64,000 bases of DNA from the NCBI RefSeq assembly GCF_947494875.1, contig NZ_CANLWM010000011.1:1-64000 (forward strand), given 5' to 3'. This document shows, one piece after another, positions 46,979 to 60,945 of the stretch. The stretch is from an uncultured Williamsia sp. Lineage in GTDB: Bacteria; Actinomycetota; Actinomycetes; Mycobacteriales; Mycobacteriaceae. Position numbers and translations under genes: made by a program. The notes under the pieces are model-generated. The model was not told where the DNA came from. It saw only the letters and a list, made by a program, of their open reading frames with translations, and did not search any database. The stretch's first letter is position 1. Each line of letters opens with the position of its first letter.

Positions 46979-47150
46979 GGCTGGCCGGGGTGGCCGGTCA
47001 ACCCCGTAGAGCGCAGGGACCGGAACCGACTTCGGCTGCGAGCGTAGCGAGTGCGGGTGGCCGTGGTCGGTGGAGCGCGTGGGCGCAGCGCAGCGGAGAA
47101 CACGCGAGTGTCCCGGAGTGTGGGTTGACCGGTCGGGGCCCCGGCCAGCC
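46979..47150. repeat. foldback element 1 (diverged copy)
   Basis: Outer arms GGCTGGCCGGGG (46979-46990) and CCCCGGCCAGCC (47139-47150), then CCGGTCAACCC (46994-47004) and GGGTTGACCGG (47122-47132), are exact complements; an inner stem ACCGACTTCGGC/GCCGTGGTCGGT follows. The central GCGAGCGTAGCGAGTGCGGG matches the centre of element 4 (GCGAGCGCAGCGAGTGGGGG), although the arms differ. Located just upstream of the minus-strand gene starting at 46937. Confidence 0.75.
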
Positions 47151-47196
47151 ACGATGAGAAGGCGCGCGCCCCCGTGGTGACCACAGGAGCGACAGC

Positions 47197-47233
47197 TGCC
47201 GGCGGGGGAGGCTCGATGCCTTCCCCGCCGGCA
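47197..47233 (-). terminator. terminator of the ArdC-like operon
   Basis: TGCCGGCGGGG (47197-47207) and CCCCGCCGGCA (47223-47233), exact 11-bp stem, 8 bases beyond the stop at 47241. Confidence 0.7.
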
Positions 47234-47240
47234 CCCCGCT

Positions 47241-47456
47241 CTAGGTGAGCCGGGCGACGGCGCGGGTTATCCGCTGGGCCAGGGCGGCGAGCTCGTCGGG
47301 GGTTCCTTCCAGGACGACGCCGTCGCCGTTCTCAGTGGAGATCATCAGGGCGTGCCCGGCGTCGATGCGTTCGTCGTAGTCCTCCCACATCTGACGGCGG
47401 GCCACGGCCGCGACGCCGGCGGTGGTGGCGGAGCCCCATTCGTTGTGCGTTCTCAT
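47241..47456 (-). CDS. small hypothetical protein
   Basis: 71 aa from ATG 47456, overlapping the preceding stop (ATGA). RRQMWEDYDERIDAGHALMIST and VLEGTPDELAALAQRITRAVA suggest a strand followed by a helix. Last gene of the ArdC-like operon. The long frame above it on the same strand is a shadow. Confidence 0.65.
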   Translation of the reverse strand: MRTHNEWGSATTAGVAAVARRQMWEDYDERIDAGHALMISTENGDGVVLEGTPDELAALAQRITRAVARLT

Positions 47457-47947
47457 CGGTCGTTCCTTCCGGGGGTGAGGTCGGACATCCGTAGCGCGGA
47501 CTCGACGATGCGGCCGACGGTGGTCTGGCTGCCGGTGGTGACGAGGTGGTCGTCGAGGTGCACGTTGTGGTCGGGGTCGGCGGGGGTGTGCAGGCGGCCG
47601 TAGTGGATGTCGGTTGCGGTGATCTCGACGGGGTCGAGGTCGGCGAGCTGCGGGTGGCCGGGGTTGCGGTGCTGTAGGCGGCGGATCATGGCGGTGACGG
47701 CGGCGTCGCTGTAGCGGCGGTCGGGTAGGACGTTGGCGCACAGGTAGTTCCGGCGCGCGCCGTTGTCGGGGGAGTGGGTGTAGGGGCGTAGCCGGTCGTA
47801 CACCTGGGGGACGGTGGGTCCGTCGATCCAGGCGACGGCGGCGTAGGTGCTCGCGCCGCGGCCGGCGCGGATGGAGAACCGGACGTCGGGCCAGGTGGCG
47901 CGGACAGTTCCGCGCATGAGGCGGGTGGAGTCGGTGACGGTGATCAA
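47453..47947 (-). CDS. LPD29-like domain protein
   Basis: 164 aa from TTG 47947 (AAAGGGGGCC upstream). The opening RGTVRATWPDVRFSIRAGRG...TYAAVAWIDGPT resembles the 'large polyvalent protein-associated domain 29' found in plasmid and phage polyvalent proteins. A central part contains NYLCANVLPDRRYSDAAV. Function unknown. Coupled to the genes on both sides. Confidence 0.65.
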   Translation of the reverse strand: MITVTDSTRLMRGTVRATWPDVRFSIRAGRGASTYAAVAWIDGPTVPQVYDRLRPYTHSPDNGARRNYLCANVLPDRRYSDAAVTAMIRRLQHRNPGHPQLADLDPVEITATDIHYGRLHTPADPDHNVHLDDHLVTTGSQTTVGRIVESALRMSDLTPGRNDR

Positions 47948-47983
47948 GGGTGGGCCCCCTTTCTGGGGTGTGGTGGTGGGTGG

Positions 47984-48928
47984 TCAGGCGGCGTCGGCGG
48001 CCGCGGTGCTGTCGTCCTCGTCCTGGGGGTGCAGGGCGTCGGCGATGGTGTGCACGCAGGTCAGGACGCGGGTTGCGGTGGCGGTGACGATTTCGGGGTC
48101 GCCGTCGGCCCATCCGGTGATGTAGCCGACGCTGTAGGCGCTGGTGTCCAGGCCGCAGAGGGCGGCGACGACGTAGGCGACGGATTCGGCTTCGACCTCG
48201 CGGATGCCTCGGTGCTGCTCGACGTCGGGGGCGTCGATGCGCTGGCCGTCGGGGTCGGCGTGCAGCAGGGCGTGGGCGGTCTCGTGGATCATCGTCTTGG
48301 CCGCCTGGGCGGGCGCGAGGTCGGCGTCGACGACGATGCGCTTGGTGCCGTCGACGCGGGTGTAGCCGTTCGTCGTGCCGGGGATCTGCTCGCGGGTGAT
48401 GGTCCATCCCTGGGCGGTGATGTAGGCGGCGACCCGGTCGTAGATGCAGGTCTCGTCCTCGCCCTCGACGTGGGCGACGATGTCGCCGGGCTCAGTGATG
48501 GTGCGGTCCTCGGTTCCGTCGATGGGGTCGGTCTGGGCGATGTCGAACACGCTCAGGACTGGGAACCGGGGGATACGGGTCTCCGATTCCTCGCCGGTGG
48601 CGGGGTCGGTCTCGGTGACCTTCTTCGAGGAGAACCCGAAGATGCGGATCGCCCCCTCGCCCTTGCGGACCTGCCGCCCGAGTTCCTGCCACTTCCGGAA
48701 CCCGGCGACCTGGGTCGCGTCGGGGCGCTGGGCGGCGATCAGCAGGATGTTGCGCAGGCTGTAGCTGTGGAAGTTTGCGAGGTAGTCGAGCCATTCACGC
48801 CACCCGGTCGACTCGGCCATCGCCTCGACCTGCTCGGCGATCTGGGCCTGCATCGCCTCGGCCCGCTCACGGCGCGCGGCGGCTGCCTGCTCGGCGGTCT
48901 TGCCTGTGCGTGCTCGACGTGTACCCAT
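47984..48928 (-). CDS. ArdC-like antirestriction protein with metallopeptidase domain
   Basis: 314 aa from ATG 48928 (GGGAGG 11 bases upstream). N-terminal ArdC-type single-stranded-DNA-binding domain (about 28-95; FHSYSLRNILLIAAQ, VAGFRKWQELGRQVRKGEGAIRI), then a zincin domain with HETAHALLH (215-223) and EVEAESVAYVV. Conjugative plasmids use ArdC to shield entering single-stranded DNA from restriction. It starts 31 bases from foldback element 2, the first gene behind it. Confidence 0.85.
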   Translation of the reverse strand: MGTRRARTGKTAEQAAAARRERAEAMQAQIAEQVEAMAESTGWREWLDYLANFHSYSLRNILLIAAQRPDATQVAGFRKWQELGRQVRKGEGAIRIFGFSSKKVTETDPATGEESETRIPRFPVLSVFDIAQTDPIDGTEDRTITEPGDIVAHVEGEDETCIYDRVAAYITAQGWTITREQIPGTTNGYTRVDGTKRIVVDADLAPAQAAKTMIHETAHALLHADPDGQRIDAPDVEQHRGIREVEAESVAYVVAALCGLDTSAYSVGYITGWADGDPEIVTATATRVLTCVHTIADALHPQDEDDSTAAADAA

Positions 48929-48959
48929 AACCGGTGCGACCTCCCATGTCCGCCAATTC

Positions 48960-49154
48960 TTTTGCCCTTCTGGCAAGGGAGATAAAGACCGGCAGAGGAG
49001 GACAGAGCGCAAGAACTGAGCGGGACAGTTTTCCCGCGAGGCGCAGCCGAGTGTGGGTGGGAAAAGTGGTCCGACCCCGCAGGGGCCCGACCGAGGGTCA
49101 GGCTCTTGTGCGGCGGACGACGCCGGTCATGATCGGACGGCCAGAAGGGCAATA
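48960..49154. repeat. foldback element 2
   Basis: TTGCCCTTCTGGC (48962-48974) pairs exactly with GCCAGAAGGGCAA (49140-49152); GACCGGC (48987-48993) with GCCGGTC (49122-49128); an inner AGTTTTCCC/GGGAAAAGT stem follows. The right flank CGGACGACGCCGGTC is shared with elements 3, 4 and 5. Further small hairpins and a shared TGTGCGGGAGCGGCG block continue to about 49380. It precedes the ArdC-like gene. Confidence 0.85.
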
Positions 49155-49410
49155 CCGACCCCTCAGGGGATCAGCTTGTGCGGCCGGAGGCCGCTCCACG
49201 CGTGCGCAGCACGCCCGCACTCCCCAACCACCAGCGACACCGCCGGCCTCACGGATCAGGGGAGTGGCTCCACCGCATCACAAGACCAGGCCAACTGTGC
49301 GGGAGCGGCGTTTGCCCGGTAGCCCACCGGAGCCGCGGCAGCTCTGCGTGTTGTGGTCCGCTTTCCCACGTCACTGGCGGCCACAACCGTCGTCGTTAGA
49401 GAATCATCCG

Positions 49411-49944
49411 ATGACCGACCCGACGTCTCCACCTTCCCACAAGATTGACCGCGGTATGCAATTTCGTGTCGCGCTGATTGGAGTTATAGCCGCTCTTGCC
49501 GGCGCCGCGGTGGGCGGATTTTCGTCTTACAAAGTTGCCGATGTAAACGCGGAGAATAATCGGGTGCTCGATCGACTGGATGCTCGCCAGACGGCGTATG
49601 TCGACATGATTACTGCAGCAAACCGCTGCCAGCAGTCGATAATTTCCCTGTCGCACACCAAAAACTACCCGGGCCTAACCACATCCAGTGTGGACGTGCT
49701 GGATTCTGCGATCACAGATGTCGGACAGCGACTTGCCGCAATTCAACTAATAGGAAGCCGCTCCGCGTTTCTGGCCGCGATAGAGCTGTCGAACGCAATA
49801 AATAAGAACGCTGGAATGGCTCGGCAAATTGCGCAAGGCTCCGCCCCTGCCCTTCCCGAATCGGAGACCGGCATTGATGACGACCTGGCCAAGGCGGACA
49901 ACAAGTTTGCAGCGGAAGCGAAGGCTGACTTGGATTCAGAGTGA
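49411..49944 (+). CDS. bitopic membrane protein, AT-richer gene
   Basis: 177 aa from ATG 49411. One helix at about 19-38 (RVALIGVIAALAGAAVGGFS), then a coiled-coil-like extracytoplasmic helix bundle (NNRVLDRLDARQTAYVDMI; AANRCQQSIISL). GC at third positions is clearly lower than in neighbouring genes, suggesting separate acquisition. Not recognised. Confidence 0.7.
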   Translation: MTDPTSPPSHKIDRGMQFRVALIGVIAALAGAAVGGFSSYKVADVNAENNRVLDRLDARQTAYVDMITAANRCQQSIISLSHTKNYPGLTTSSVDVLDSAITDVGQRLAAIQLIGSRSAFLAAIELSNAINKNAGMARQIAQGSAPALPESETGIDDDLAKADNKFAAEAKADLDSE

Positions 49945-49945
49945 T

Positions 49946-50242
49946 CTAGGCCTGCCCGGCGGCGCCAACGTTGCGCTGGAGTAGTTGGATCTCGTCCGTC
50001 AGCCGGTCGACGCCGGCCGTGGAGCCGTCGGCGATGACGCCGCCCGCTAGGGCGGTGTGGTCGTCGATGGTGATCGACAGGAACAGTGCGCCGCTGGTGT
50101 TGGCGGCGAAGTAGGTGAGGGTGGCGATGGCGGCATCGCCGGCGGCGAGGCGGGCTTCGGTGAGGCTGGGGACGGCGTTGGCGTCGATGATCGGGTGGGT
50201 GTCGGGGTCGTCGGTGAAGACGGTCACGGTCCAGCAGATCAT
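49946..50242 (-). CDS. small hypothetical protein
   Basis: 98 aa from ATG 50242 (GAGGAGCCC upstream). MICWTVTVFTDDPDTHPIID and TYFAANTSGALFLSITIDDH suggest a small alpha/beta fold. Ends 1 base from the convergent membrane-protein gene. The frame upstream is a shadow. Confidence 0.6.
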   Translation of the reverse strand: MICWTVTVFTDDPDTHPIIDANAVPSLTEARLAAGDAAIATLTYFAANTSGALFLSITIDDHTALAGGVIADGSTAGVDRLTDEIQLLQRNVGAAGQA

Positions 50243-50375
50243 GGTGGGCTCCTCGAGGTGGTGGTCCTGGTGTCCAGGATGGCGGATGGGGTGGGGGCCT
50301 GTCGTTCTTCGCTGTGGGCGGACGCGGGTCGCGGGTTTCGACCACGTGGCCGCCGGCGGTTCTAGCGTGGTGGGC

Positions 50376-50531
50376 ATGTGGTCTCGGATTGAGCGTGAGT
50401 TGCGGGCAGTGCTGCCGGTGTCGGCGGACGATGTGGAGCGGGTCGTGAATGGTCCGACCGCCGTCGGTCCGCGCAGCGGGCCGGCGGCCGATATGGGGTG
50501 GCCGCCGGAAGGCGTCGATTCGGGGTGGTGA
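50376..50531 (+). CDS. possible small protein (51 aa)
   Basis: ATG 50376 in a short clean frame: MWSRIERELRAVLPVSADDV then ERVVNGPTAVG. No strong ribosome site, but the hairpin just after its stop and natural sequence support it. Confidence 0.45.
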   Translation: MWSRIERELRAVLPVSADDVERVVNGPTAVGPRSGPAADMGWPPEGVDSGW

Positions 50532-50553
50532 CCCGCACCGCGAGGGGTGCGGG
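50532..50553. terminator. bidirectional terminator
   Basis: CCCGCACC (50532-50539) and GGTGCGGG (50546-50553) around GCGAGG, between convergent genes. Confidence 0.6.
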
Positions 50554-50567
50554 CCTGCCCGGTGGGG

Positions 50568-51530
50568 CTAGCTCGGTGGGGTCCAGCCGTGCAGGGCGTT
50601 GCGGATGTAGTCGGTGTCGACCTTGGCGAGCGTCCCGAGGAACAGCGTCATCGGGCTCATCCCGTTCTGGATCGCGACGTCGAGTAGCTCGGCGAGCGGG
50701 GTGGTGAGCTTCTCTCGCTGCATCGCTTCGAGGGTCTGCCCGGCCAGTGAGTCGCCGTCGTAGGCGTAGCAGGCGGCGGCCAGGGTGAGCAGCTGGGCGC
50801 GGTGGTCCCCGCGTAGGTGCCCGGCGAGGATGCGGAACGTGTCGGCCGCGCGGCCGAAGTCCTTGCGCACGATCCACATCAGCGCGTCGCGGGCGCGGGA
50901 CTCCTTGCTGGTGAGGACACCGATGCGGGCGGCGAGCAGCGGCGTCGGGGCGGTGGCGCCGGTGATGACGTCGAGCAGGTCGGCGGCGACCGCCCCGGCG
51001 AACCGGTTGCCCTCGGTGAGGTAGTGCTCCTGGGTGAAGTCGGTGGCCACCGGGGTGGTCATCGCGAACATGTCCTCGCGGGCCTCGCGGGACTCGGCGA
51101 TTGGTGCGGCCCCGTGGACCGCCTGGGCGACGGCGACGGCGGTGTTGCGCACGTCGGTGACTGTGCCGACCTGCCCGGTGATGCTGTCGTGGAAGCTGGT
51201 CCCGGTGTCGAACGAGGTGAGGTGGATCAGCGCGGCCACCTCGACGGCGCGGGCGAGGTCCTCGGTGACAGCCCGGGTGACGGCGGGGTTGTTCTCGGCG
51301 GCGACGACCACAATCGCGACCCTGGTGATGCCGTGCTTGCCGACCAGGGCGATGAGTTCGTCGGTGATGAACCGTCGCCCGACGCGGAGATCTACTCGCG
51401 CGGTGCAGAACATCCGGTCATCGTCGAACAGCACGGCCACGACGGACTCTCGCGGGATGAATCCCACGAGCGCCGGGATCGCCGACACGAGGTCGGTGAG
51501 GGTGCGGAAAGTGATGCGCGGGATGCTCAC
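50568..51530 (-). CDS. DUF4192 family protein
   Basis: 320 aa from GTG 51530 (GGAGGCACCC upstream). FRTLTDLVSAIPALVGFIPRES and VVAVLFDDD are the DUF4192 opening; the rest (DALMWIVRKDFGRAADTFRIL, LLTLAAACYAYDGDSLA) fits the family's helical end. DUF4192 is widespread in actinobacteria and their plasmids, without a known function. First gene behind foldback element 3 (45 bases). Confidence 0.85.
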   Translation of the reverse strand: MSIPRITFRTLTDLVSAIPALVGFIPRESVVAVLFDDDRMFCTARVDLRVGRRFITDELIALVGKHGITRVAIVVVAAENNPAVTRAVTEDLARAVEVAALIHLTSFDTGTSFHDSITGQVGTVTDVRNTAVAVAQAVHGAAPIAESREAREDMFAMTTPVATDFTQEHYLTEGNRFAGAVAADLLDVITGATAPTPLLAARIGVLTSKESRARDALMWIVRKDFGRAADTFRILAGHLRGDHRAQLLTLAAACYAYDGDSLAGQTLEAMQREKLTTPLAELLDVAIQNGMSPMTLFLGTLAKVDTDYIRNALHGWTPPS

Positions 51531-51575
51531 GGGTGCCTCCAAACAGTCAGGGTGCCGACCGGAGCGGTCCGGCAA

Positions 51576-51757
51576 TTTTTTGCCCTGCTGGCAGGGAGAT
51601 TCGAGACCGGCATAGGAGGACAGAGCGCCACCCCGCGAGCGGAAAGTTCTCAGGCGCAGCCGGGTTGAGAAGTTTCCGACCCGCCAGGGCACGTCAGTGT
51701 CGCGGGGTTGCGTGGCGGACGACGCCGGTCACAATCGGATGGCCAGCCAGGGCAAAA
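51576..51757. repeat. foldback element 3
   Basis: TTTTGCCCTGCTGGC on the left (51576-51592 region) pairs with GCCAGCCAGGGCAAAA (51742-51757) with one bulge; GACCGGC/GCCGGTC is conserved; CCCCGCGA and TCGCGGGG pair in the middle; GGAAAGTTCTCA and TGAGAAGTTTCC form the inner stem. The pairs differ in sequence from those in elements 2 and 4 at the same places. A CGGCCCGCTAGGGCCG hairpin and a GTGCGGCCCGCAGGGCCGC hairpin follow to about 51820, as after element 4. Confidence 0.85.
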
Positions 51758-51952
51758 CAGCTCACGTCCCGGCCCGCTAGGGCCGGGGCCTACAGTGCGG
51801 CCCGCAGGGCCGCTCCGATTCCGGGGGTGCCTGGCACCCCCGCCACGGCACCGCCGGCCGCCGACGCGGGCAGCCCACCGACACGATCGGGCGGTGGGGT
51901 GGCCCCGGTCGATCCTGGGGCCACCCCGGTCGCGGCCGCCAGGCCGCACCGC

Positions 51953-52306
51953 TCAGACGACGGTGGCGCAGTCGCGGCACTCCCACCGACCGTCGACGCG
52001 GGTGCAGCGGCGGCGCTGATCGCACAGCCAGCACAGCTGGTTCGACCGGGTGACGCCCTCGTCGGCGTCGTCGCCCGTCTGGTCGACGGCGGCGGCGATG
52101 ATCGCGGTGTGGCCGCTGTAAGCGGCCAACGTCTCGGCGTCCCGGGCGGCCTGGTCGGCCGCGGTGAGCGGGGCACCGCCGGGGGTGTGGGCGATCATCT
52201 CGCCGAACGCTTTCCGGCAGTCGTCGCACGGCTGGCCCTGGACGTCGGTGAATCTCGAGCAGCCCGGTAGCGGGCAGCGGGCGAACAGCTCGGGTTCGGG
52301 GAGCAT
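51953..52306 (-). CDS. double zinc-finger protein
   Basis: 117 aa from ATG 52306 (AGGAGGACC upstream). Two zinc-ribbon-like pairs at each end: CPLPGC...CDDC (about 10-28) and CWLC...CRDC (about 91-112), separated by a helix. Possibly nucleic-acid or protein binding. The preceding frame is non-coding. Confidence 0.65.
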   Translation of the reverse strand: MLPEPELFARCPLPGCSRFTDVQGQPCDDCRKAFGEMIAHTPGGAPLTAADQAARDAETLAAYSGHTAIIAAAVDQTGDDADEGVTRSNQLCWLCDQRRRCTRVDGRWECRDCATVV

Positions 52307-52343
52307 GGGTGGTCCTCCTGGGCAGAGCGAGGGCACCGGTGGC

Positions 52344-52367
52344 GGCGGGACCGGGGTCGGTCCCGCC
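52344..52367 (-). terminator. terminator after the ParB-domain gene
   Basis: GGCGGGACC (52344-52352) and GGTCCCGCC (52359-52367), 16 bases beyond the stop at 52383. Confidence 0.6.
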
Positions 52368-52382
52368 GTCACCGGGCGGGGG

Positions 52383-54032
52383 TCAGGCCGTGAGGTCGAC
52401 CTGGTCGGCGGTCAGGTCACCGGTGACGACGCGTTCGACGTCGGCGAGGGTGTAGCCGAACACCTCGACCAGCCATGCGAGGTAGAGCGCGCGGGCGTCC
52501 TTGGCGATGCTGTAGTCGCTGCCTCGCCAGGCGTCCTTGGGCAGGTCGGCCTCGTGTGCAGCGCACACGATCGCGGCGGTGATGACCTGGGCGCGTTCGG
52601 CGCTGGCCTCGGCGAGCAGCTCGACCGGGTTGCCACCGAGCAACTCGGCCGCGATGACGCGGGTGTCGCTGTCGGCGCGATTCAATCCGAACAGGCCGTG
52701 CCGCGACCACATCGTGGACGCCACGAACCGGGCCACGACCGCTCCGCTGCCCTTCGGCAACGTCTTGCGGGCCAGGACGGTCCGCAGATGGTCGCGGCGG
52801 ACCTCCTGCGCGGCGACCGCGAGCTTGTTCAGCGCCTTCACCTGACGCCGCTCGGCGGACTCCTTGGCCTTCTGCGCGGCCGCGAGCGCGGCGTGGTCGA
52901 CCTCGCCGGTCTCGGTGACCGCCCCGGCCTCGGTTGCGGCGGCGAGGACCGAGTCGGCGTCGCGTTCGCGCTGCGCCCGCTGGCGGGTCGTTTCCAGGCC
53001 GTCGTCGGCGGGGGAGGAGTGGAACCACTCAACGCTGGTGGTGATGGTCTCGCTCTCGACCAGGACTCGCGGGTCGAGCAGACCGTCCTCGGGCGCGGTG
53101 GTCGGGTCGTCGTCCTCGGTGAGTGACCAGTCGATGAGGGTCTCGTCGACCTGCTCACCGGCGGCGTCGTGCCACACCTCTTCGACGTCGACGCCGACGT
53201 AGGCGGCGAGGTGCTCGCTCGTCAGCTCTGCGCGAGCGGTGTCGGTGTCCTCGACCGGCTCGCCGGTCTCGATGTGCACCAGCTCCGAGATCGGGGCGTA
53301 GCCCTGCCCGTACCAGGGGCGGCGGTCCAGGACCGTCACCCCGGCCTCGATGAGCGGGGCAGCGGCTTGGCGGTAGGCGGCGCGCTCGGCGGCGGTGTCG
53401 GCGAGCTGCTTGGCCTTGTGGTCGAACCGGCCCTCACTCGCGGCTGCGGTCAGCGCCTCGACGGCCTCGGTGTCGCCGGCGTCCTCGAACTGCGCGAGGA
53501 GCGCGGCTTGTTCGATGGTCAGGCCCCACGCCAGACCGTTGATCCCGGCCTCGCTGCCCGCGACGGCGACGGCGGCGTCGACGGCCTTGGTCGACCCCAG
53601 GCGGGTCACCTTGCCGATCTTGGTGCGTGAGACGCCCAGCTCGATGAGCTGCTGCGCTGCTGCCGCCCGCTGGGTGGCGGTGAGGTCGGCGCGGTGCTCG
53701 TTGGCGATTAGCTGGTCGGTGATCCGCTCGACCTCGGCGTCGTCCCCGGCGGCGTCGGTGGCGATCACGTACACCGGGATGCTCACCAGCTCGGCCTCTC
53801 GTGCGGCGAGGGTGCGGCGCTGCCCGTCGCGTACGTGCAGGGTTCCGGCGCTGTCGCGGGTGGCGAGGACCGGCTGGATCACCCCGCGCTCCTTGATCGA
53901 GGTCACGAACGCCCGGTCGACGCTGGCCTCGGTCCGCACGTTCGCGTCGACCACGAGCGTGGCCGGGTCGACGTGCTCGATGACCGCCTCGGTGGTCGCG
54001 GCGGCGGGGGTGGTGTTCTGGTTGTTTCCCAC
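52383..54032 (-). CDS. ParB-domain leading-region-type protein
   Basis: 549 aa from GTG 54032 (GAGGAGACACCA upstream). ParB/sulfiredoxin-fold domain at about 20-110 with VRDGQRRTLAA, followed by an HTH-like region (TATQRAAAAQQLIELGVSRTKIGKVTRLG, about 120-150) and a long acidic/helical C-terminus. It is far from parA and much longer than partition ParB; proteins like it (YubM type) occur in plasmid leading regions. A nuclease or DNA-binding role is inferred. Confidence 0.82.
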   Translation of the reverse strand: MGNNQNTTPAAATTEAVIEHVDPATLVVDANVRTEASVDRAFVTSIKERGVIQPVLATRDSAGTLHVRDGQRRTLAAREAELVSIPVYVIATDAAGDDAEVERITDQLIANEHRADLTATQRAAAAQQLIELGVSRTKIGKVTRLGSTKAVDAAVAVAGSEAGINGLAWGLTIEQAALLAQFEDAGDTEAVEALTAAASEGRFDHKAKQLADTAAERAAYRQAAAPLIEAGVTVLDRRPWYGQGYAPISELVHIETGEPVEDTDTARAELTSEHLAAYVGVDVEEVWHDAAGEQVDETLIDWSLTEDDDPTTAPEDGLLDPRVLVESETITTSVEWFHSSPADDGLETTRQRAQRERDADSVLAAATEAGAVTETGEVDHAALAAAQKAKESAERRQVKALNKLAVAAQEVRRDHLRTVLARKTLPKGSGAVVARFVASTMWSRHGLFGLNRADSDTRVIAAELLGGNPVELLAEASAERAQVITAAIVCAAHEADLPKDAWRGSDYSIAKDARALYLAWLVEVFGYTLADVERVVTGDLTADQVDLTA

Positions 54033-54060: not shown

Positions 54061-54089
54061 CAACCAGCCGAGTACCAGTCGGCTGGTTG
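54061..54089. promoter_or_regulatory. 11-bp hairpin upstream of the ParB-domain gene
   Basis: CAACCAGCCGA (54061-54071) and TCGGCTGGTTG (54079-54089) are exact complements; on the plus strand TTTTT follows. For the minus-strand gene it lies 29 bases before the start, so it may be an operator or attenuator rather than its terminator. Confidence 0.55.
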
Positions 54090-54146
54090 TTTTTCGTTGT
54101 GCGGCAACCCGGTCGGGCTGTCCGCGTCCCGCGAGCCCTGGTCGGG

Positions 54147-54515
54147 TCAGCGGTAGTTCTGGTCCCCGAGGTCGGAGTGCTCGCGGTTCATGCGCCGCAT
54201 CGCTGCGCAGTGCTCACGCTGCTCGCGGTAGACCTGCATCACGGCGTGGCATTCCTGGGCGGCGATCACGTCGAGGGCGGCGGTCGCGAGATCCCCGGCG
54301 ATGGTGTTGTCGCGGGCCTTGGCGAGCCAGTCGGTGGCCATCTGCGCCTCGGAGTTGATCCCCGACACCAGCCGCTCGTCCCATTCGGCGAGGAGCTGAT
54401 CACGGGCCTGGTTCTTGCTGATCCCTCGGGTTGCGGCGACCACAGCGACGCCGGTCAGGTTGGGGCCCTCCACGGTCAGGGCGTCGGGGTCGAGATGAAT
54501 GTGGTTGGTGCTCAC
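54147..54515 (-). CDS. hypothetical helical protein
   Basis: 122 aa from GTG 54515. Helical with GISKNQARDQLLAEWDERLV and many His/Cys near the end (ECHAVMQVYREQREHCAAM). No known domain. Second gene behind foldback element 4, likely one operon with the ParB-domain gene. Confidence 0.6.
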   Translation of the reverse strand: MSTNHIHLDPDALTVEGPNLTGVAVVAATRGISKNQARDQLLAEWDERLVSGINSEAQMATDWLAKARDNTIAGDLATAALDVIAAQECHAVMQVYREQREHCAAMRRMNREHSDLGDQNYR

Positions 54516-54527
54516 GTCCTACCCCTC

Positions 54528-54701
54528 TCAGGCGATCTCGACGGTGACGGTTGCGGCCTCGCGGATCGCGGGGTCCTCCAGGCCCAGCTCCATCAGAGCG
54601 GCCTTCGTGGTGTCGTCGAGCTCGTGAAACGGCCCGTCGGTGGTGATTGCGATTCGTCGCCACGCAATACGCGCAGCAAAGACGACGTCGATACCCTGCA
54701 T
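54528..54701 (-). CDS. small hypothetical protein (57 aa)
   Basis: ATG 54701 (GGGAGGCAGTC upstream), stop TGA at 54528. MQGIDVVFAARIAWRRIAIT then TDGPFHELDDTTKAALMELG. It starts 25 bases from foldback element 4 and leads the operon to 52383. Unknown function. Confidence 0.7.
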   Translation of the reverse strand: MQGIDVVFAARIAWRRIAITTDGPFHELDDTTKAALMELGLEDPAIREAATVTVEIA

Positions 54702-54726
54702 GACTGCCTCCCGTTGTCCGCCAATC

Positions 54727-54910
54727 TTTTTGCCCTTCTGGCAAGGGAGATAAAGACCGGCTCAGGAGGACAGAGCACAACCCCTGATCGGGAAAGTTCT
54801 CTGCGAGCGCAGCGAGTGGGGGAGAGAAGTTTCTCGACCCCGCAGGGGCGGAACGTCAGGGGTTGTGCGGCGGACGACGCCGGTCAAAATCGGACGGCCA
54901 GAAGGCAAAA
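54727..54910. repeat. foldback element 4 (best-paired copy)
   Basis: Arms TTTTTGCCCTTCTGGC (54727-54742) and GCCAGAAGGCAAAA (54897-54910) pair with one bulge; GACCGGC with GCCGGTC; CACAACCCCTGA (54776-54787) exactly with TCAGGGGTTGTG (54856-54867); GAAAGTTCTCT with AGAGAAGTTTC; the tip contains CTGCGAGCGCAG. TTTTGACCGG on the minus-strand reading offers a -35-like TTGACC. More hairpins, matching those after elements 2 and 3, run to about 55130. Confidence 0.88.
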
Positions 54911-55128
54911 CAAAAACGCCCCGGCCGCTAGGCCGGGGTCACTGTGCGGCCCGCAGGGTCGCTCCGATTCGGTGCGCAGCACCGCCGCAGTTGCGAAGGA
55001 CCGTCGGCGGGCGTCGGCGAGTGGCGGCGGTGGGTGAGTGGCTCGACCGCACCACCGGCTCGGGGTGATTGTGCGGGAGCGGCGCGGGTCCGGGAGGTTG
55101 CCGGGGCCGCGGTAGCTCTGCTCTGGGG

Positions 55129-55365
55129 TCAGTAGAGCGAGCGTTGTGTGGTGCGTCCGTAGTCGTTGACGACGAGACATTCGTCGTCGGAGAACAGGGG
55201 GAGCACGGTGCAGGTGCGGGGCCGCTCGGCTACGGACTCGAGGTGGTCGGCGACCTGGTCGGCGCGGGTGGAGCCGTAGGGACCGAGGTACCAGGTGTTG
55301 GGTTCGCCGTCGCTGGTGGTGTCGTCGATCTTCACGATGTAGACGTTGCTGTGCGAGTAACTCAT
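55129..55365 (-). CDS. small hypothetical protein
   Basis: 78 aa; its ATG overlaps the stop of the upstream gene (ATGA). NVYIVKIDDTTSDGEPNTWY, then a helix (TRADQVADHLESVAE) and a strand; a compact alpha/beta fold. Unknown. Confidence 0.65.
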   Translation of the reverse strand: MSYSHSNVYIVKIDDTTSDGEPNTWYLGPYGSTRADQVADHLESVAERPRTCTVLPLFSDDECLVVNDYGRTTQRSLY

Positions 55366-55928
55366 TGCGAATTCCTGTCGGTCCGTGAGTGCGTGAGACG
55401 CGGCTGCCGTTGTCGCCGGCGGGCGAGTTGGTAGACATCCTCGACGGTGTCGGGGGAGATGGCGAGTTCGGCGGCGAGCGCAGCGATCACTTCGTGGCGT
55501 CGTTGCTCGCTGGCGCGGTCATCGTCGGGGTTGGCCTGGGCGGGGTACTGCCAGTCGCCGAGGATCACCATCTCGGTCTCGAGGCGGGTGCCTCCGCGCT
55601 CTTCGAGGGCGTTGGCCAGGCCGGTGAGGGTGCGGAGCCGGCGGGGGATGATCAGCTCGTCGTTCCAGGTGTTCGTGAAGGCATCGGCGACTGCGGCCGC
55701 GGCGGATCCGGTTGCGTGCGTGTGCGCCGCTCCTGGCTCGCCGGTGAGCAGCTCGTCCGCGTCTGCGAGTACGTCGCGCCGCTGGGTGGCGTGCTTCACC
55801 CGTGCGACGAGTGCGGTGTCTGCGAGTTCGCGTTCGCGTCGTGTCGGCGTCTGCCGGTTGACGCGGATGAGCAGCGCTATCGCGAAGACCAACGTGATGG
55901 CACTGAGGACGAGTCCGAGTACGGCCAT
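55362..55928 (-). CDS. bitopic membrane protein, paralogue of the one at 44245
   Basis: 188 aa. One membrane helix (3-22), basic linker, then a domain with FTNTWNDELIIPRRLRTLTGL, MVILGDWQYPAQ and SPDTVEDVYQLARRR matching the protein at 44245-44832 block by block. Start ATG 55928 (AGGCAGGAG upstream). Confidence 0.72.
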   Translation of the reverse strand: MAVLGLVLSAITLVFAIALLIRVNRQTPTRRERELADTALVARVKHATQRRDVLADADELLTGEPGAAHTHATGSAAAAVADAFTNTWNDELIIPRRLRTLTGLANALEERGGTRLETEMVILGDWQYPAQANPDDDRASEQRRHEVIAALAAELAISPDTVEDVYQLARRRQRQPRLTHSRTDRNSQ

Positions 55929-55953
55929 GAGCGATTCTCCTGCCTCTTGACGG

Positions 55954-56208
55954 TCAGTGGCCGCGATTGCGGCGCGATAGGCGACGGGCGGTGGCGGACC
56001 AGCGGCGGTTGAACGTCTGGGCGGGCATGCGGTTGATCGCGAAGCCGATAGCGAAGACGGGGACGCCGATGAGCCATGCGGTGGCCCAGTCTTTGGTGAT
56101 GAACCCGTAGACGAGGAGGCCGGCGATGATGAGGCCGGCGACGGCGGTGGCGGCGCCCTGACGCAAGGTGCCGTGGTCCTTCAACTGCATGCCCGGATTG
56201 TCTCTCAT
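55954..56208 (-). CDS. small two-helix membrane protein
   Basis: 84 aa from ATG 56208, overlapping the previous stop by 4 bases. Helices at about 19-35 and 41-60, then a basic tail (RRWSATARRLSRRNRGH). Unknown. Confidence 0.65.
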   Translation of the reverse strand: MRDNPGMQLKDHGTLRQGAATAVAGLIIAGLLVYGFITKDWATAWLIGVPVFAIGFAINRMPAQTFNRRWSATARRLSRRNRGH

Positions 56209-56504
56209 TCGTCCGACACCCCGGTTCCGGTTTGACCCCTCCGGGCAGCCGGACCGACCGCCAGCAGTACCCCCGTCAGGATCGCGCCAGCGAAGCAGAA
56301 GGCTGCTGCGCCGGTCCAGTAGTCGACAAGAAAGTGCGGGTCGCAGGGCCATTTCTCGCCTGGCGGCGGTGTCGCGGGCATCGAGTGGAGCTTCATGGCT
56401 ACGGCGGTTGCGATGACGCCGAGGATGAGGATGGTTTCGAGGAGGATGGCGTCCTGTTGTTGCCGTTGCGACGGGCGGGAGGAGTGCAGATCGCCATTGG
56501 CCAT
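56205..56504 (-). CDS. small two-helix membrane protein
   Basis: 99 aa. Helices at about 20-40 and 67-90; a Pro/Cys loop (PATPPPGEKWPCDPHF) between them. Divergent from the XRE gene, sharing the repeat operator region. Confidence 0.65.
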   Translation of the reverse strand: MANGDLHSSRPSQRQQQDAILLETILILGVIATAVAMKLHSMPATPPPGEKWPCDPHFLVDYWTGAAAFCFAGAILTGVLLAVGPAARRGQTGTGVSDE

Positions 56505-56541
56505 GTGATTGCCCCTTCGTGCTGAGGAACGCGGAGTGAGT

Positions 56542-56583
56542 GTGTTCTATAGTCTACATTGCGGTGTGTTCTATAGTCCACAT
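56542..56583. promoter_or_regulatory. tandem operator and leaderless promoter of the XRE gene
   Basis: GTGTTCTATAGTCTACAT (56542-56559) and GTGTTCTATAGTCCACAT (56566-56583) differ by one base and are 24 bases apart. The second contains TATAGT at 56572-56577; a transcript starting about 7 bases on would begin at the GTG start codon (56585), i.e. leaderless. The XRE protein probably binds here. Confidence 0.65.
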
Positions 56584-56584
56584 C

Positions 56585-56956
56585 GTGAGCGAGGATCGGT
56601 TACGTCGGCTGGGGGAGAAGTTGCGTCAGGCTCGACTTGCTCGGGGTGAGACCCAGCAGCAGACCGCGGCGGCGGTGGGGATCCACCGCACTCACCTGTC
56701 TCGGATCGAGGGCGGTGGGGAGAACATCACGCTGCGCACGCTGTGGGCGTTCGCTGACCATCTGGGTGTCACCACCGACTCCCTTGTCGGTGACCAGGAA
56801 CTGCACGACGTGATCGCCGAGCTGACGGCCCGACGTTCCGCCGCTGCCCAGGCGGGGCAGAGCACGACCGAGATCGAGGCAGAGCTGGACCGGGCCCTCG
56901 ACGCGGTCCTGGGCCTAGGCCAGACGCACGCTGATAGCCGACCGATGTCGGACTGA
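56585..56956 (+). CDS. XRE-family regulator
   Basis: 123 aa from GTG 56585. HTH at about 8-62 (LRQARLARGETQQQTAAAVGIHRTHLSRIEGG), then a helical tail. Divergently placed to four small minus-strand genes; direct repeats lie immediately upstream, so autoregulation is likely. Its last codons lie within the first 23-nt repeat. Confidence 0.85.
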   Translation: MSEDRLRRLGEKLRQARLARGETQQQTAAAVGIHRTHLSRIEGGGENITLRTLWAFADHLGVTTDSLVGDQELHDVIAELTARRSAAAQAGQSTTEIEAELDRALDAVLGLGQTHADSRPMSD

Positions 56957-56969
56957 CCTGACACCATCC
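56947..56969. repeat. 23-nt dispersed repeat, copy A
   Basis: GTCGGACTGACCTGACACCA plus TCC; overlaps the stop of the XRE gene. Copies B (57992) and C (58579) differ at one or two places. Confidence 0.7.
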
Positions 56970-56995
56970 CCGTACGTGAACGATAGGAACACCCG

Positions 56996-57412
56996 ATGAT
57001 CCCTCCCTCGCTGCATTTCCCGCACGTCGATCCGCTGCTCGCAGTGGCGTTCTGGATAGCGGTCGGCGGTGTGATCGGTCTCGGCCTCGCGGCCGCCGGC
57101 GTCGTCGTTGTCCATCGCAGAGCGCTGGCGAGGAGTGAGCGCGACGAGCGTCGAGTCGCACTGCGGGCGGGCGTATACCGCGTTCGCCGACCCGATGGAG
57201 GTTTCGTGGTCAGCGACCCCCGTCCGGGCCACCATCACCGCACACACGGTTTCCTGGGTGCTCGATACAGCGTGTTCACGGACGAGCAGTGGGCGCGCCT
57301 GGCTGCGATCCGCGACAGCGGGACGACTCCGCCGCCCTCCGGCTACCGCATTGAGCGGCTTGATGACCGGGGCAAGTGGGCCGCGATTGTCCGCGTTCCG
57401 GTTGCCGTCTAG
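56996..57412 (+). CDS. membrane protein with cytosolic domain
   Basis: 138 aa from ATG 56996 (ATAGGAACACCCG upstream). One helix at about 13-39, then a basic, mixed domain (AGVYRVRRPDGGFVVSDPRPG ... GARYSVFTDEQWARLAAIRDSG). Unknown. Confidence 0.6.
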   Translation: MIPPSLHFPHVDPLLAVAFWIAVGGVIGLGLAAAGVVVVHRRALARSERDERRVALRAGVYRVRRPDGGFVVSDPRPGHHHRTHGFLGARYSVFTDEQWARLAAIRDSGTTPPPSGYRIERLDDRGKWAAIVRVPVAV

Positions 57413-57451
57413 CTTCGGTTCGAAATCAGAGGGGAGAGGGTCGGAAAGCTG

Positions 57452-57856
57452 ATGAAGTCGACAGACGTAACGAAGGGTCGGGGCCTTGTTGCGGCCTACG
57501 ACGACGCGGCAAAAGCTGCGCTCTATGGGTCGGCTGCTGTTGGGATCGGCAACGTGATCGTTACGGTCCGACCGCCTGCGGTATTCGCATCACTAGGCTG
57601 GGCATTGTTGATCGTGCCGGCGATCACCGCTCTGGTGTTCCTCGTCCCGCTGCTCGCTGCGCGATGCGAGCTTTCGGCCAACAGGCCGGTAGGTCAGCCA
57701 GATATCGAGGACATCGCCGTCCCGCCCGCAGCACCATCACCCAGGGATAGCGCCGCTTTCCAAAAGCGTCTCACGCTAACCGGCCCGCTCGCCGTGTTCC
57801 TCGCCCTGCTCGTATGCGCTCCCGCGTTGCCCAGCATCTGCGCGCTTATGTCGTGA
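57452..57856 (+). CDS. three-helix membrane protein
   Basis: 134 aa from ATG 57452 (GGAAAGCTG upstream). Helices at about 22-40, 46-70 and 112-132. No signature. Confidence 0.6.
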   Translation: MKSTDVTKGRGLVAAYDDAAKAALYGSAAVGIGNVIVTVRPPAVFASLGWALLIVPAITALVFLVPLLAARCELSANRPVGQPDIEDIAVPPAAPSPRDSAAFQKRLTLTGPLAVFLALLVCAPALPSICALMS

Positions 57857-57991
57857 TCGCTCCACAACTCGCAACAGGAACGGTCACGACGTCAACCAAA
57901 GTATTCGGGCCAGGGGAAACGTCAGAGCAGAGTCGACATGCTCTCCCGTATCGCGAGGGCGTAGCTCGCGGAGTCGTTGGCCCGCAACGGT

Positions 57992-58014
57992 GTCGGACCG
58001 ACCTGACACCATCC
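57992..58014. repeat. 23-nt dispersed repeat, copy B
   Basis: GTCGGACCGACCTGACACCA plus TCC, intergenic, 43 bases before the next gene. See copy A. Confidence 0.7.
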
Positions 58015-58057
58015 TCGGGAAGCACTGTTCACGAAATCGAGACGGTTGGGAGTGGTT

Positions 58058-58489
58058 GTGACTCAGGCAGTAGCGGCGGGATTCGTTTGGCAACTCGTGC
58101 TGTTGACTGGCCTCATCTACTGGTCGAGGTTCGGGGTCGCCGCGGTCATTGACGCAGCAACACAACCTGTCCGGGCGGTGCGCTGGCAGCCGCATCCGGA
58201 GCTCGGACCGACACCGGCGCCCGCCCGGTTCAAGTGGTACATCGGTCTCTTCGGTTTGGCCGCCTTGCCCGTCGGCGTGGTTGTCGCCGGTGTCTGCGCG
58301 ACCTGGCGGGTCACCGTCGGCGCGTGGCCTCCGGGGCCCATTGTCGAAACGGGATGGCTAGCAGCGATCCTCGGTTGGGTGGCGTTGTTGTTGGCCGGCG
58401 AACTGTCAATCGCGAAAGAGCTCGGCGCAGAGCACACCGTACGATCCGCACTGCACCGGCACCGTCACCGTCACATCTTCGAGCGGTGA
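58058..58489 (+). CDS. three-helix membrane protein
   Basis: 143 aa from GTG 58058 (GGGAG 5 bases upstream); in-frame TTG and GTG codons a few bases before are possible. Helices at about 4-22, 63-82 and 100-117, and a His-rich end (ALHRHRHRHIFER). Confidence 0.6.
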   Translation: MTQAVAAGFVWQLVLLTGLIYWSRFGVAAVIDAATQPVRAVRWQPHPELGPTPAPARFKWYIGLFGLAALPVGVVVAGVCATWRVTVGAWPPGPIVETGWLAAILGWVALLLAGELSIAKELGAEHTVRSALHRHRHRHIFER

Positions 58490-58578
58490 ACCGGAAACCG
58501 TCTCTCGCTGTTTCGACTCGCCCTGGCCCGCGGGCAGCCTCACCCAACGTCGGCGGGACGCGCCGCCGATCAGCCGGT

Positions 58579-58601
58579 GTCGTACTGACCTGACACCATC
58601 C
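58579..58601. repeat. 23-nt dispersed repeat, copy C
   Basis: GTCGTACTGACCTGACACCA plus TCC, intergenic between convergent genes. See copies A and B. The 58490-58686 stretch otherwise holds no gene. Confidence 0.7.
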
Positions 58602-58686
58602 TCGAGCGCGGCTTCTCTAGCGCGGTTCGCGTAGTTTTCGGACCCGCGAGGTGGGGGCGCGACCAGAGTGACTCACCTAGCGCCGC

Positions 58687-60132
58687 TCACCCGACCAGGT
58701 TGAAGACCCCACGGATGCGTCGGCGTGCGCTCGGGGTGAGTGGTTGGCCTGACTCGACGGCGCGGCGTGCACTTGCCTCCAACTCGTCCAGAACTTCGGC
58801 CCGTATCTCGGTGTATCCCTGCGGCGCCGGCGGGTGTCGATCGACGAGGGCAGTGAGCCGTCGACGCGCCTCCGAGTTCTCGAATATGGCGAACTCGGGC
58901 TCGAAGCATTCAAACCGGACACGATTGATCGTACGGGGATGTTGGCATATGAGGCCTGGCCAGAGCGCATCATGGGGCGGGGCGGCCAAACTAAGACTCG
59001 CGATCATCGTTGCGGTCGTCTTGACGGTCAGCGCGTCGAGTTCTTCATTCGAGAGGTCGTCGATGCGGGTCTTGTGGCCTCGCAGAATTGCGGACGCCAA
59101 AACCGCCCCCTCATAGGCCAGGATGCGATGGCGAGCTTCCCCACTCTGGGGGTGAAGATCATCGAGTTGCCTAAGCAACTTGGATGCGTCTGACTGCTCG
59201 ATGAGGTCCAGGGCCTCAAGGATGACCACAGCGTCCGCTACCTCGGCGGTCGCCAAAACAGCGGAGCCCGTGTTGCCTTCACGCGGTTGCTGCAAAACGT
59301 CGACCAGTTCACCGAGTCGATCCGCGAAGAATGCCCGGAGCTCCAGCTCGTTGTCGACCTCGCGCATCTCAATTCCTGCGGCGATCAGGTCTCTGCATGC
59401 GGCGTCGTAGCGCCAGCCGTAACCGGTCAGCGAGACCTGGTGGTGGCGGATGTACTCGGAACTACTTCGCAGCAAGGCTATTGCCTCCTCGATCGCGCCG
59501 TCATGGATGTCATCGTCGACGGGCGCCATGAGAGCGTTGACTCGGTGGTCGCGCATGATCAGACGCTCTACATGTGGTGCGCCGTGAACTTCTGCGAGCT
59601 CCTCCGCTTCGGCGGTCAGGGTCAGCATCTCGTTCCGGGAGTCGGGCAGCGCGTTTTCGATCGTTTCGGCGATGGCGTAACGGGTGAGGAACCGGACCTC
59701 GGCGCCAAGCCGCTGGCTATCCGCGGTGCGCATCAGTTCGCGGGCCCTGTCGGCGTGTTCACGCATGTACAGAAATGTCAGCTCCGCGCGGAGACTCGCC
59801 TCAGGATCGCCGCTAGCCATCGCCCGCGCCTGCTCCATTCGTGCCAGGGCGAGAAGGTCGTCGTCAGTGGGGGCTCCGGCGGCCTGACGGCGGTCGACTA
59901 GTTGCAACGCGATAGCGCCGACTCCACCGGGGAACTGGTTGTACACCGTAGACGGGGACACCTTTGCCCGCTTCGCGATCTGCTTCACCGTCACGAACGT
60001 CGGGCTGCCGCCAGTCTCGCGTGACTCGACGACCAGGGTCTCCGCTGCCCCGAGGATGGCTTCTCTGGATGCCATCCGGCGGGTGACTCCGGATTTCTTT
60101 CGCGCAAGGCCTCGTCGATCGTCCGCATTCAT
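58687..60132 (-). CDS. double-length TetR-like regulator
   Basis: 481 aa from ATG 60132 (GGAGGGTCG upstream). TetR-type HTH at about 20-75 (SREAILGAAETLVVE ... VTVKQIAKRAKVSPSTVYNQF), then about 400 helical residues, twice the usual TetR ligand domain, possibly two fused effector domains. Divergent from a small membrane protein gene, with an inverted repeat in between. Ligand unknown. Confidence 0.8.
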   Translation of the reverse strand: MNADDRRGLARKKSGVTRRMASREAILGAAETLVVESRETGGSPTFVTVKQIAKRAKVSPSTVYNQFPGGVGAIALQLVDRRQAAGAPTDDDLLALARMEQARAMASGDPEASLRAELTFLYMREHADRARELMRTADSQRLGAEVRFLTRYAIAETIENALPDSRNEMLTLTAEAEELAEVHGAPHVERLIMRDHRVNALMAPVDDDIHDGAIEEAIALLRSSSEYIRHHQVSLTGYGWRYDAACRDLIAAGIEMREVDNELELRAFFADRLGELVDVLQQPREGNTGSAVLATAEVADAVVILEALDLIEQSDASKLLRQLDDLHPQSGEARHRILAYEGAVLASAILRGHKTRIDDLSNEELDALTVKTTATMIASLSLAAPPHDALWPGLICQHPRTINRVRFECFEPEFAIFENSEARRRLTALVDRHPPAPQGYTEIRAEVLDELEASARRAVESGQPLTPSARRRIRGVFNLVG

Positions 60133-60163
60133 CGACCCTCCAGCTTCCAACTTGGTTCACATG

Positions 60164-60193
60164 TTCAGTTTGGCGTGTACAGCCAATTTGAAC
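60164..60193. promoter_or_regulatory. palindromic operator between divergent genes
   Basis: GTTCA (60164-60168) ... TTGGC (60170-60174) - 7 bases - GCCAA (60182-60186) ... TGAAC (60189-60193). A 30-bp near-palindrome of TetR-operator size, 32 bases upstream of the regulator start. Confidence 0.55.
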
Positions 60194-60228
60194 TCTGATT
60201 CCATTATAAGGCGAGAGGAGGTGATCGC

Positions 60229-60525
60229 ATGATCAAGTTTCGAAGCGCAACTTTGCTCTTCATCGCCGTCGTTGTCGGCGTTGCGGCCGGCGGGATGACG
60301 GAGCTGTCGGGTCAATCTCTCGCTGCGGCCGTGCTAGCAGGGGGAGCGGCATTCGGAGTGACCTTGCTCTGGCTGGAGAAAGTGGTCGGCCCCGAGGCCA
60401 CTGCGTCGGAGATTAGGGCCACCAAGAACGGACGGTCCGTGGCCTACGTCCACGCAGGCTGCACGGTGAAACACCGGACGCTGGACACCGCGCAGCGGTG
60501 CCAGCGGCCCCACGCATCAGGGTAA
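60229..60525 (+). CDS. small two-helix membrane protein
   Basis: 98 aa from ATG 60229, preceded by the nearly ideal AGGAGGTGATC. Helices at about 8-26 and 31-50, then a polar part with CTVKHRTLDTAQRCQRP. Likely controlled by the divergent TetR-like protein. Confidence 0.7.
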   Translation: MIKFRSATLLFIAVVVGVAAGGMTELSGQSLAAAVLAGGAAFGVTLLWLEKVVGPEATASEIRATKNGRSVAYVHAGCTVKHRTLDTAQRCQRPHASG

Positions 60526-60644
60526 GACGACGCCGGGGTCGGACACGCCTCTGAAGCGTCGACCCGCCCACGCGCGGTCTCGGGACGCTTCGACACGTGC
60601 GCGCAAGCATGACTGTGCGTTAGTAGCCAAGTGCTACTTGACAT
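60444..60644 (-). CDS. weak ORF next to foldback element 5
   Basis: 66 aa from ATG 60644 (MSSSTWLLTHSHACAHVSKR...), 11 bases from element 5 and pointing toward oriT like the other element-linked genes, but it overlaps the end of the convergent gene and has poor coding character. Confidence 0.2.
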   Translation of the reverse strand: MSSSTWLLTHSHACAHVSKRPETARGRVDASEACPTPASSYPDAWGRWHRCAVSSVRCFTVQPAWT

Positions 60645-60654
60645 AACGCAAATT

Positions 60655-60945
60655 ATCCGCCAAATATGCTGGCAAGCAATGTATTTCATCACCGGTGACG
60701 ATATGTACCATGAATCGTGATGCAAAGCGGCGCGAGAAAGTCTCGAGCGCGGACAGGTTGAGAGTTTCTCGACCCGAAGGGCGCGGCAGTGTCGCAGTAT
60801 TGTGCGGCGGACGACGCCGGTCGCAATCGGACGGCCAGAAGGACGAAGCAACGAACTCACCGCGGCCGCAAGGCCGGGGGCAACTGTGGGACCGCAGGGA
60901 GCTCAGATTCGAAGCGCGCAGCGCGCCGCTTTTCGGGTGAGTTCC
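60655..60945. repeat. foldback element 5 (degenerate left arm)
   Basis: TCCGCCAA and GCTGGCAAG at the left match the start of elements 2 and 4; the right block GTGCGGCGGACGACGCCGGT and CGGACGGCCAGAAGG (60801-60842) is nearly identical to theirs. GAGAAAGTCTC and GAGAGTTTCTC keep the inner stem. Downstream CGGCCGCAAGGCCG and GCGCGCAGCGCGC hairpins run to 60945. Upstream of the lsr2-like gene. Confidence 0.75.

Follow-up and report, generated by a model that had tools for sequence, protein, structure and literature searches.

Candidate single-stranded-DNA promoters: strand-specific hairpins placed before start codons on actinomycete plasmids

The window analyzed here is a stretch of 64,000 nucleotides from an uncultured Williamsia sp. 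(contig NZ_CANLWM010000011.1, positions 1 to 64,000), which includes a transfer region with a coupling protein gene and a relaxase gene and, among the genes to its right, a series of long foldbacks. Three of these foldbacks belong to a family of hairpins, class A, whose members are conserved as folds on one strand, stand shortly before start codons on the opposite strand, and carry promoter-like motifs in the 3' arm. The likely explanation is that, within the leading region of conjugative plasmids, the elements act as single-stranded-DNA promoters, similar to Frpo in their working and unrelated to it in sequence. The fold, its covariation, the strand that folds, the spacing to genes, the polarity relative to relaxase genes and to a nic-like motif, and the conservation of the promoter-like motifs were all computed.

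A preliminary description of this DNA had placed five foldbacks in one family. Its account of shared outer arms (CCTTCTGGC/GCCAGAAGG in copy 4), a GACCGGC/GCCGGTC helix, and middle and inner stems that vary and still pair holds for copies 2, 3 and 4, and the + strand of each, folded as DNA, was better than all 200 shuffles. Copy 1 (46979-47150) has a weak advantage over chance in its folding (z = -2.0, 4 of 200 shuffles equally good), was missed by the class A covariance model, and belongs to a second family, class B. Copy 5 (60655-60945) is a decayed class A element that fails to fold (z = -1.0, 36 of 200 shuffles equally good) and scores 30.8 bits with the covariance model R1, compared to 137-204 bits for the 20 copies from which that model was built. 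The gene to its left, chosen by codon pattern, lies on the plus strand, so copy 5 may be without a target gene. A single family of five was consequently rejected.

Relatives of class A are present beyond the window, as a covariance-model search revealed. Within the window's family, R1 matched 57 of 301 genomes, from 11 of 31 genera. A sample of the order gave matches in 8 of 397 genomes, every one in the window's family, and a sample of the class in 7 of 394, two of them outside it; the families of these two outside genomes showed weak matches in 6 of 199 and 7 of 197 genomes. When copy 4 with its right flank was compared by blastn to plasmid records, 175 places were found in 106 records (Rhodococcus 73, Prescottella 26, Gordonia 4 and Nocardia 3), and the 40 rows listed had no annotated feature beneath the match. 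Two other origins were discarded: a phage origin, blastn of 54700-55130 giving no match among 50,697 phage records, and a known RNA family, Rfam giving no match at gathering score over the window and none up to E 1 over 46900-61100. The table of copies (E up to 1e-5; copy 5 not included), after removal of opposite-strand echoes and duplicate loci, holds 139 distinct cores, 99 of them strong.

Omitting two strong copies with broken right ends (L086 and L087), the remaining 97 were reduced at <90% identity to an alignment of 57 sequences. Paired cells amount to 94.9% of this alignment, compared to 34-46% when the partner is slid, both-sided changes occur in 20 of 27 pairs, and none of 500 shuffles was as high on any of five measures. 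Covariation, which had been set as the test in a larger alignment, therefore holds. Read on the + strand, the cells comprise 1689 Watson-Crick, 160 G.T, 27 A.C and 89 other combinations. Because mutation neutral with respect to strand would give about equal numbers of G.T and A.C, this excess identifies the + strand as the one under folding selection, and the earlier proposal of selection on a folded strand is strongly supported. The consensus energy of class A is -32.5 on the + strand versus -5.5 on the - strand. A divergent subclass (29 copies picked by eye, reduced to 16 at <92% identity) gave G.T 53 and A.C 4, with consensus energies of -32.1 (+) and -9.4 (-). The + strand is antisense to the downstream genes.

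The elements are also fixed in position with respect to genes. A Shine-Dalgarno-like site and a start codon on the opposite strand are found 20-130 nt to the left of 124 of the 139 distinct copies, a start codon being counted only with a reading frame of at least 50 codons; the distance from copy to start has a median of 47 nt and quartiles of 44-51. The same arrangement occurs on the right side of 53 of 137 copies, and at 544 of 2626 and 583 of 2622 random positions (21-22%). Furthermore, on all 35 contigs with at least two copies among the matches listed, every copy lies on one strand. Transposons inserted at random sites, a possibility raised in the preliminary description, do not agree with this placement. 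Within contigs, neighbouring copies are 1.2-146 kb apart (median 3.15 kb). The downstream proteins, 131 in number and from 45 residues in length, fall into 36 similarity clusters, some of which are probably spurious reading frames. The three largest clusters hold 23, 21 and 20 of the 131 proteins, with representatives that have no Pfam match, are ArdC-like and carry DUF4192, respectively; single or small clusters include ParB_N, DUF932, DUF2786 and LPD29. ArdC of plasmid R388 is required in the recipient and not in the donor, according to the accessible part of PMC7213743. As a separate observation, the cluster of 23 (L063 4870 locus) is a candidate for an anti-defence protein or one made early on entry.

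Read from tip to base, the 3' arm contains the motif TTG-N16-xANNNT. TTG and xANNNT are present at a spacing of 15-18 in 51 of the 57 sequences, and the spacer is exactly 16 in 52. The -35 part (TTGYGC) is base-paired, while the -10 part (consensus CANAAT) lies within a large unpaired loop in which A-11 and T-7 are invariant (57/57); the duplex GCCAGAAGG/CCTTCTGGC then follows. A-11 and T-7 are the two -10 bases that matter most to primary sigma factors. The 3' arm is 36 nt long in 49 of 57 sequences and the 5' arm, the would-be template, is more variable (40 or 41 nt in 48 of 57). The alignment of the 16 divergent sequences likewise preserves xANNNT, with CG after it. A duplex promoter facing the gene was rejected at full consensus, since TTGNNN-N15-19-TANNNT occurs in that direction in none of the 57 sequences, compared to 7% of shuffles; a loose consensus was found in 38 of 57, compared to 59% of shuffles. 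A conserved terminator just to the right of the elements, which would halt transcription running outward from the duplex, was also considered and is not general, as 70-nt folds there had a median z of -0.3, with only 8 of 57 below -2. Judged by consensus, the hairpin appears to rebuild a correctly spaced -35/-10 pair aimed at the gene, as would be expected of an Frpo-type promoter.

The polarity of the elements was determined from relaxase genes, searched in 56 of the 57 genomes (G089 was left out). The count used the 150 places listed out of a larger number of matches, omitting second fragments of split relaxases and one hit below cut-off. Among these listed matches, all 106 copies on the 52 contigs with a relaxase gene, of the TrwC or the MobA/VirD2 type, are opposite in strand to the nearest relaxase gene. 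The predicted side of that gene is occupied by 89 of the 106 copies, 43 of the 52 contigs being wholly as predicted, and on 43 of 52 contigs a distance of 3-16 kb separates the relaxase from the nearest copy. A nic-like motif, an inverted repeat and then A(T/G)CTTG|CTC, was found on the strand of the element in 18 of 22 relaxase-flanking loci and on the other strand in none; the four loci without a score are the window, where the stem has 5 bp and the search required 6, and L147, L148 and L155. The form CTTG|CTC had been spotted by eye in two loci in which ATCCTG was not found, and was then searched in the 22. The motif of the window resembles the nic region of RP4-type origins. The contigs in the strand and relaxase counts are partly related by descent and some nic loci are near-identical (one plasmid recurs as L006 and L146, whose records are equal in length, and a shared repeat is seen in L156 and L164), so chance probabilities calculated from them would be too small.

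In the portion of PMC11541004 available, the relaxase gene is described as typically located in the lagging region. Given this location, the relaxase polarity and the strand of the nic motif, the folded strand is most likely the transferred strand, which would probably be the template of the genes next to the elements. The elements then occupy the leading region, with the relaxase and transfer genes lying across the origin of transfer from them, and the strand that enters the recipient is one that folds into a stable hairpin under selection. Both features are those of an Frpo-type promoter.

The following course of events is proposed. During conjugation the + strand would be the first to enter the recipient, led by its 5' end, beginning at the candidate nic near 38760 and proceeding to the right, and each element would fold into a long hairpin while the DNA is single-stranded. 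The 3' arm would serve as non-template strand, with a paired -35, 16 nt, a -10 held open in the internal loop, and a short duplex containing the start, and the 5' arm would serve as template. RNA polymerase of the recipient could bind the ready -35 duplex and the pre-opened -10, start near the hairpin base, and read the transferred strand into the gene about 47 nt away, coding for an ArdC-like, DUF4192, ParB-like, DUF932 or uncharacterised protein. In copy 4 the predicted +1 lies opposite 54897 in the hairpin, and the 5' end of the RNA would be templated at about 54741-54743 in the left arm, running left. Second-strand synthesis would remove the hairpin, and the same -35/-10 would then point away from the gene and expression would stop. 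From the arrangement described above we infer that polymerase uses the elements, where it starts and at what time, and that expression is shut off in duplex DNA.

Copy 1 belongs to class B, a second conserved hairpin family (copy 1 and L122-L130) that also adjoins start codons. For its alignment, hits shorter than 110 nt or with short flanks were dropped, and 12 sequences were reduced to 7 at <93% identity. All seven have TTGAC(A/C) and xANNNT in the 3' arm, 19-20 nt apart, and their cells include 61 G.T versus 6 A.C. On eight contigs compared by eye, class B lies on the same strand as class A, and the tip GCGAGCGNAGCGAG is common to the alignments of both families. Remote relatives were found in two other actinomycete families, f51 (L131-L138 and L119) and f18 (L139-L144 and L118), each of which aligns into hairpins. 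G.T again exceeds A.C in f51 (24 versus 4) and in f18 (73 versus 13), the latter composed mostly of near-identical sequences. The nine f51 copies stand, by eye, before possible start codons, and in f18 some copies apparently lie ahead of DUF4192-like starts. A broader interpretation, on which we are evenly divided, would be that actinomycetes independently evolved a class of single-stranded-DNA promoters, with the -10 pre-melted inside a conserved bubble and the direction switched by strand state alone, and that at least two families unlike one another in sequence, class A and class B, together with the remote relatives, govern a regulon of several operons that is expressed early on entry and consists of anti-defence genes, both known and unknown.

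Several observations do not favor single-stranded-DNA promoters. The -10 of class A has no consensus T-12 (C or G in all 57 sequences), the TTG of the -35 is absent in 6 of 57, and the promoter motif was chosen after the alignment had been seen, the divergent classes replicating it in part. In class B the spacers, at 19-20 nt, exceed what is usual for a primary sigma factor, and the - strand folds well too (-75.0 versus -96.6 on the + strand). The strand contrast is weak in the remote relatives (-31.3 versus -39.3 in f51, -73.1 versus -92.8 in f18), and in f51 the TANNNT -10 is paired save for one bulge and a TTG -35 is not evident. In linear coordinates 17 of the 106 listed copies are off the predicted side of the nearest relaxase; we reason that several of them, being near contig ends, are consistent with circular maps. 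One divergent class A copy on a Nocardia plasmid (L008 15926-16063, - strand) is reversed with respect to the three others there, and the nicked strand was deduced from the likeness of the motif to known nic sites.

Furthermore, covariation and the G.T bias would look identical whether single-stranded DNA or an RNA of the + strand were folding. The elements could then be structured non-coding RNAs, divergent from or antisense to the flanking genes, which we consider unlikely: such an RNA would need a promoter to the left, where the start codon of the opposite gene is only about 47 nt away, it has no match in Rfam, and it would leave unexplained the relaxase polarity of 106 of 106 listed copies, the variety of downstream genes and the -35/-10 spacing. 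Little probability is also given to a single-strand initiation site of the sso/ssi type, recruiting polymerase or primase only to prime the second strand of the transferred DNA. Strand, leading region and a foldback with promoter-like motifs would all suit this function, and the title of the Frpo paper names transcription as well as primer RNA synthesis; several copies per plasmid, with 124 of 139 before a ribosome-binding-like site and a start codon, nevertheless go beyond what priming needs. Priming is compatible with promoter activity, and the two are not exclusive.

Recombination sites or mobile palindromes (attC-like, REP-like or transposon ends) that gather gene cassettes would also appear as repeated foldbacks between gene groups, in a single orientation and with a median spacing of 3.15 kb, and attC sites also use single-strand folding. 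Elements locked to start codons, with a promoter-like spacing maintained, make this hardly credible. Finally, the position just upstream of establishment-type genes including ardC would suit an mRNA leader (riboswitch or attenuator) of these genes or a structured region like EGeRS1, which on pLS20 precedes establishment genes including ardC, as far as the excerpts of PMC8708921 go. Both are very improbable. An mRNA would have the sequence of the - strand, in which each G.T pair of the + strand turns into A.C (160 versus 27 in class A, 53 versus 4 in the divergent subclass), and EGeRS1 regions, in the same excerpts, are much longer than single-stranded-DNA promoters and have the transferred strand as non-template, the reverse of the polarity deduced here.

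The features of the window are listed in Table 1. The genes to the right of the relaxase gene are mostly on the minus strand and include those for ArdC-like, DUF4192 and ParB_N proteins. Genes for SIR2-like, Mrr-type restriction endonuclease and Fic-domain proteins (38995-43358) adjoin the candidate origin of transfer and may form a cluster serving defence or addiction. A 31-nt direct repeat containing CTGACCTGACACCATCC is present three times (56942-56972, 57987-58017 and 58574-58604) among small plus-strand genes. Outside the hairpin, the right flanks of many class A copies, for instance 54911-55130 of the window, have further alike sequence, GGAGCGCAGCGGAGCTC...GGTGGACACCGNAGGTGG (GTGCGGCCCGCAGGGCCGC in the window).

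Table 1. Features of the transfer region and of the hairpin elements, in window coordinates.
Feature	Position	Strand	Basis
Type IV coupling protein gene, on the other side of the relaxase gene	29201..30940	+	PF12696 E 2e-28, PF02534
Relaxase gene, taken as marker of the lagging side of the origin of transfer	36292..38643	-	PF03432 E 1.1e-11
Candidate origin of transfer	38737..38763	+	inverted repeat TTAGGCGTCCTAA then TTAGCTTG|CTC, nic-like
Copy 1, class B hairpin (ends approximate)	46955..47182	+	-35 TTGACC 47125-47130; -10 CACGAT 47150-47155; spacer 19; minus-strand start codon 46937
ArdC-like anti-restriction gene, start codon 30 nt left of copy 2	47984..48928	-	PF08401 E 6.8e-13, PF06114 E 2.8e-7
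Copy 2, class A hairpin, upstream of ardC-like gene	48959..49153	+ (folded)	R1 150.2 bits; DNA fold z -3.6
-35-like TTGTGC, 3' arm of copy 2	49106..49111	+	sequence, column statistics
-10-like CATGAT, unpaired bubble of copy 2, spacer 16	49128..49133	+	sequence; A-11, T-7 in 57/57 relatives
DUF4192 gene, start codon 46 nt left of copy 3	50568..51530	-	PF13830 E 1.3e-28
Copy 3, class A hairpin, upstream of DUF4192 gene	51577..51756	+	R1 136.6 bits; DNA fold z -6.0
-35-like TTGCGT, copy 3	51708..51713	+	sequence
-10-like CACAAT, copy 3	51730..51735	+	sequence
ParB_N-domain gene, downstream of copy 4	52383..54032	-	PF02195 E 6.9e-6, 26.5 bits (cut-off 26.3)
Small gene, 57 aa, no Pfam match, start 25 nt left of copy 4	54528..54701	-	
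Copy 4, class A hairpin, upstream of small gene, uncharacterised gene and ParB_N gene	54727..54910	+	R1 170.1 bits; DNA fold z -4.1
-35-like TTGTGC, copy 4	54863..54868	+	sequence
-10-like CAAAAT, copy 4	54885..54890	+	sequence
Copy 5, decayed class A; G in place of A-11, right arm retained, left arm no longer paired	60655..60850	+	R1 30.8 bits; sequence

If single-stranded-DNA promoters are what these elements are, early expression from incoming single-stranded plasmid DNA would not be peculiar to enterobacterial Frpo, and actinomycetes would have a different solution. The elements would flag, through a simple sequence search, the genes that a plasmid wants made first in a new host, and would provide a ready list of candidate anti-defence genes, including the largest cluster (23 of 131 proteins). 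The conserved open -10 would also be a natural test of the minimal DNA melting needed by a primary sigma factor.

Single-stranded-DNA promoters of the Frpo/ssi kind were reportedly described by Masai and Arai in 1997. Two repeats that share 89% identity over 559 nt are present in the leading region of F (L120), one preceding ssb (10071-10622) and the other at 15459-16012, presumably Frpo2 and Frpo1, and the transferred strand of F before ssb folds with a z of -6.4. Over 20 kb of the leading region of F, the best R1 hit reached 3.0 bits (E 3.2), which is not significant. Homology to Frpo was thus sought there and not found, which places the elements outside the Frpo sequence family while they would be Frpo-like in working. 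A literature search over open-licence PubMed Central papers, as far as their accessible text goes, gave no report of single-stranded-DNA promoters in actinomycetes; the terms Actinobacteria and Actinomycet are absent from the main text of PMC11541004, and PMC12826799, by its accessible part, describes a blastn search of PLSDB with known and putative Frpo sequences.

Like the elements, EGeRS1 of the pLS20 family consists of repeated structured sequences before establishment genes including ardC, on a Gram-positive plasmid. It differs, by the excerpts of PMC8708921, in being longer, in that its authors identified no promoter in the fold, and in having the transferred strand as non-template, which the relaxase and nic-motif polarity does not show for the elements; membership of EGeRS1 was rejected on this point. 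The sso of Gram-positive elements such as ICEBs1 (PMC4595007) likewise acts on conjugative single-stranded DNA, and serves replication, whereas the elements described here stand at start codons. Frpo of F and ColIb-P9 are single-stranded-DNA promoters that use the transferred strand as template, as stated in the available parts of PMC9849209 and PMC11541004, and in those parts the likeness extends to the leading region, the hairpin that rebuilds a -35/-10, and more than one copy per plasmid. The genes are alike too, with antirestriction, SSB, ParB-like and DUF932 genes in the F leading region and ArdC, ParB-like and DUF932 genes here. The differences are that the elements described here have actinomycete hosts and are known from sequence alone, and that the -10 of class A lies in a conserved open bubble instead of the canonical box described for Frpo in the same portions of these sources.

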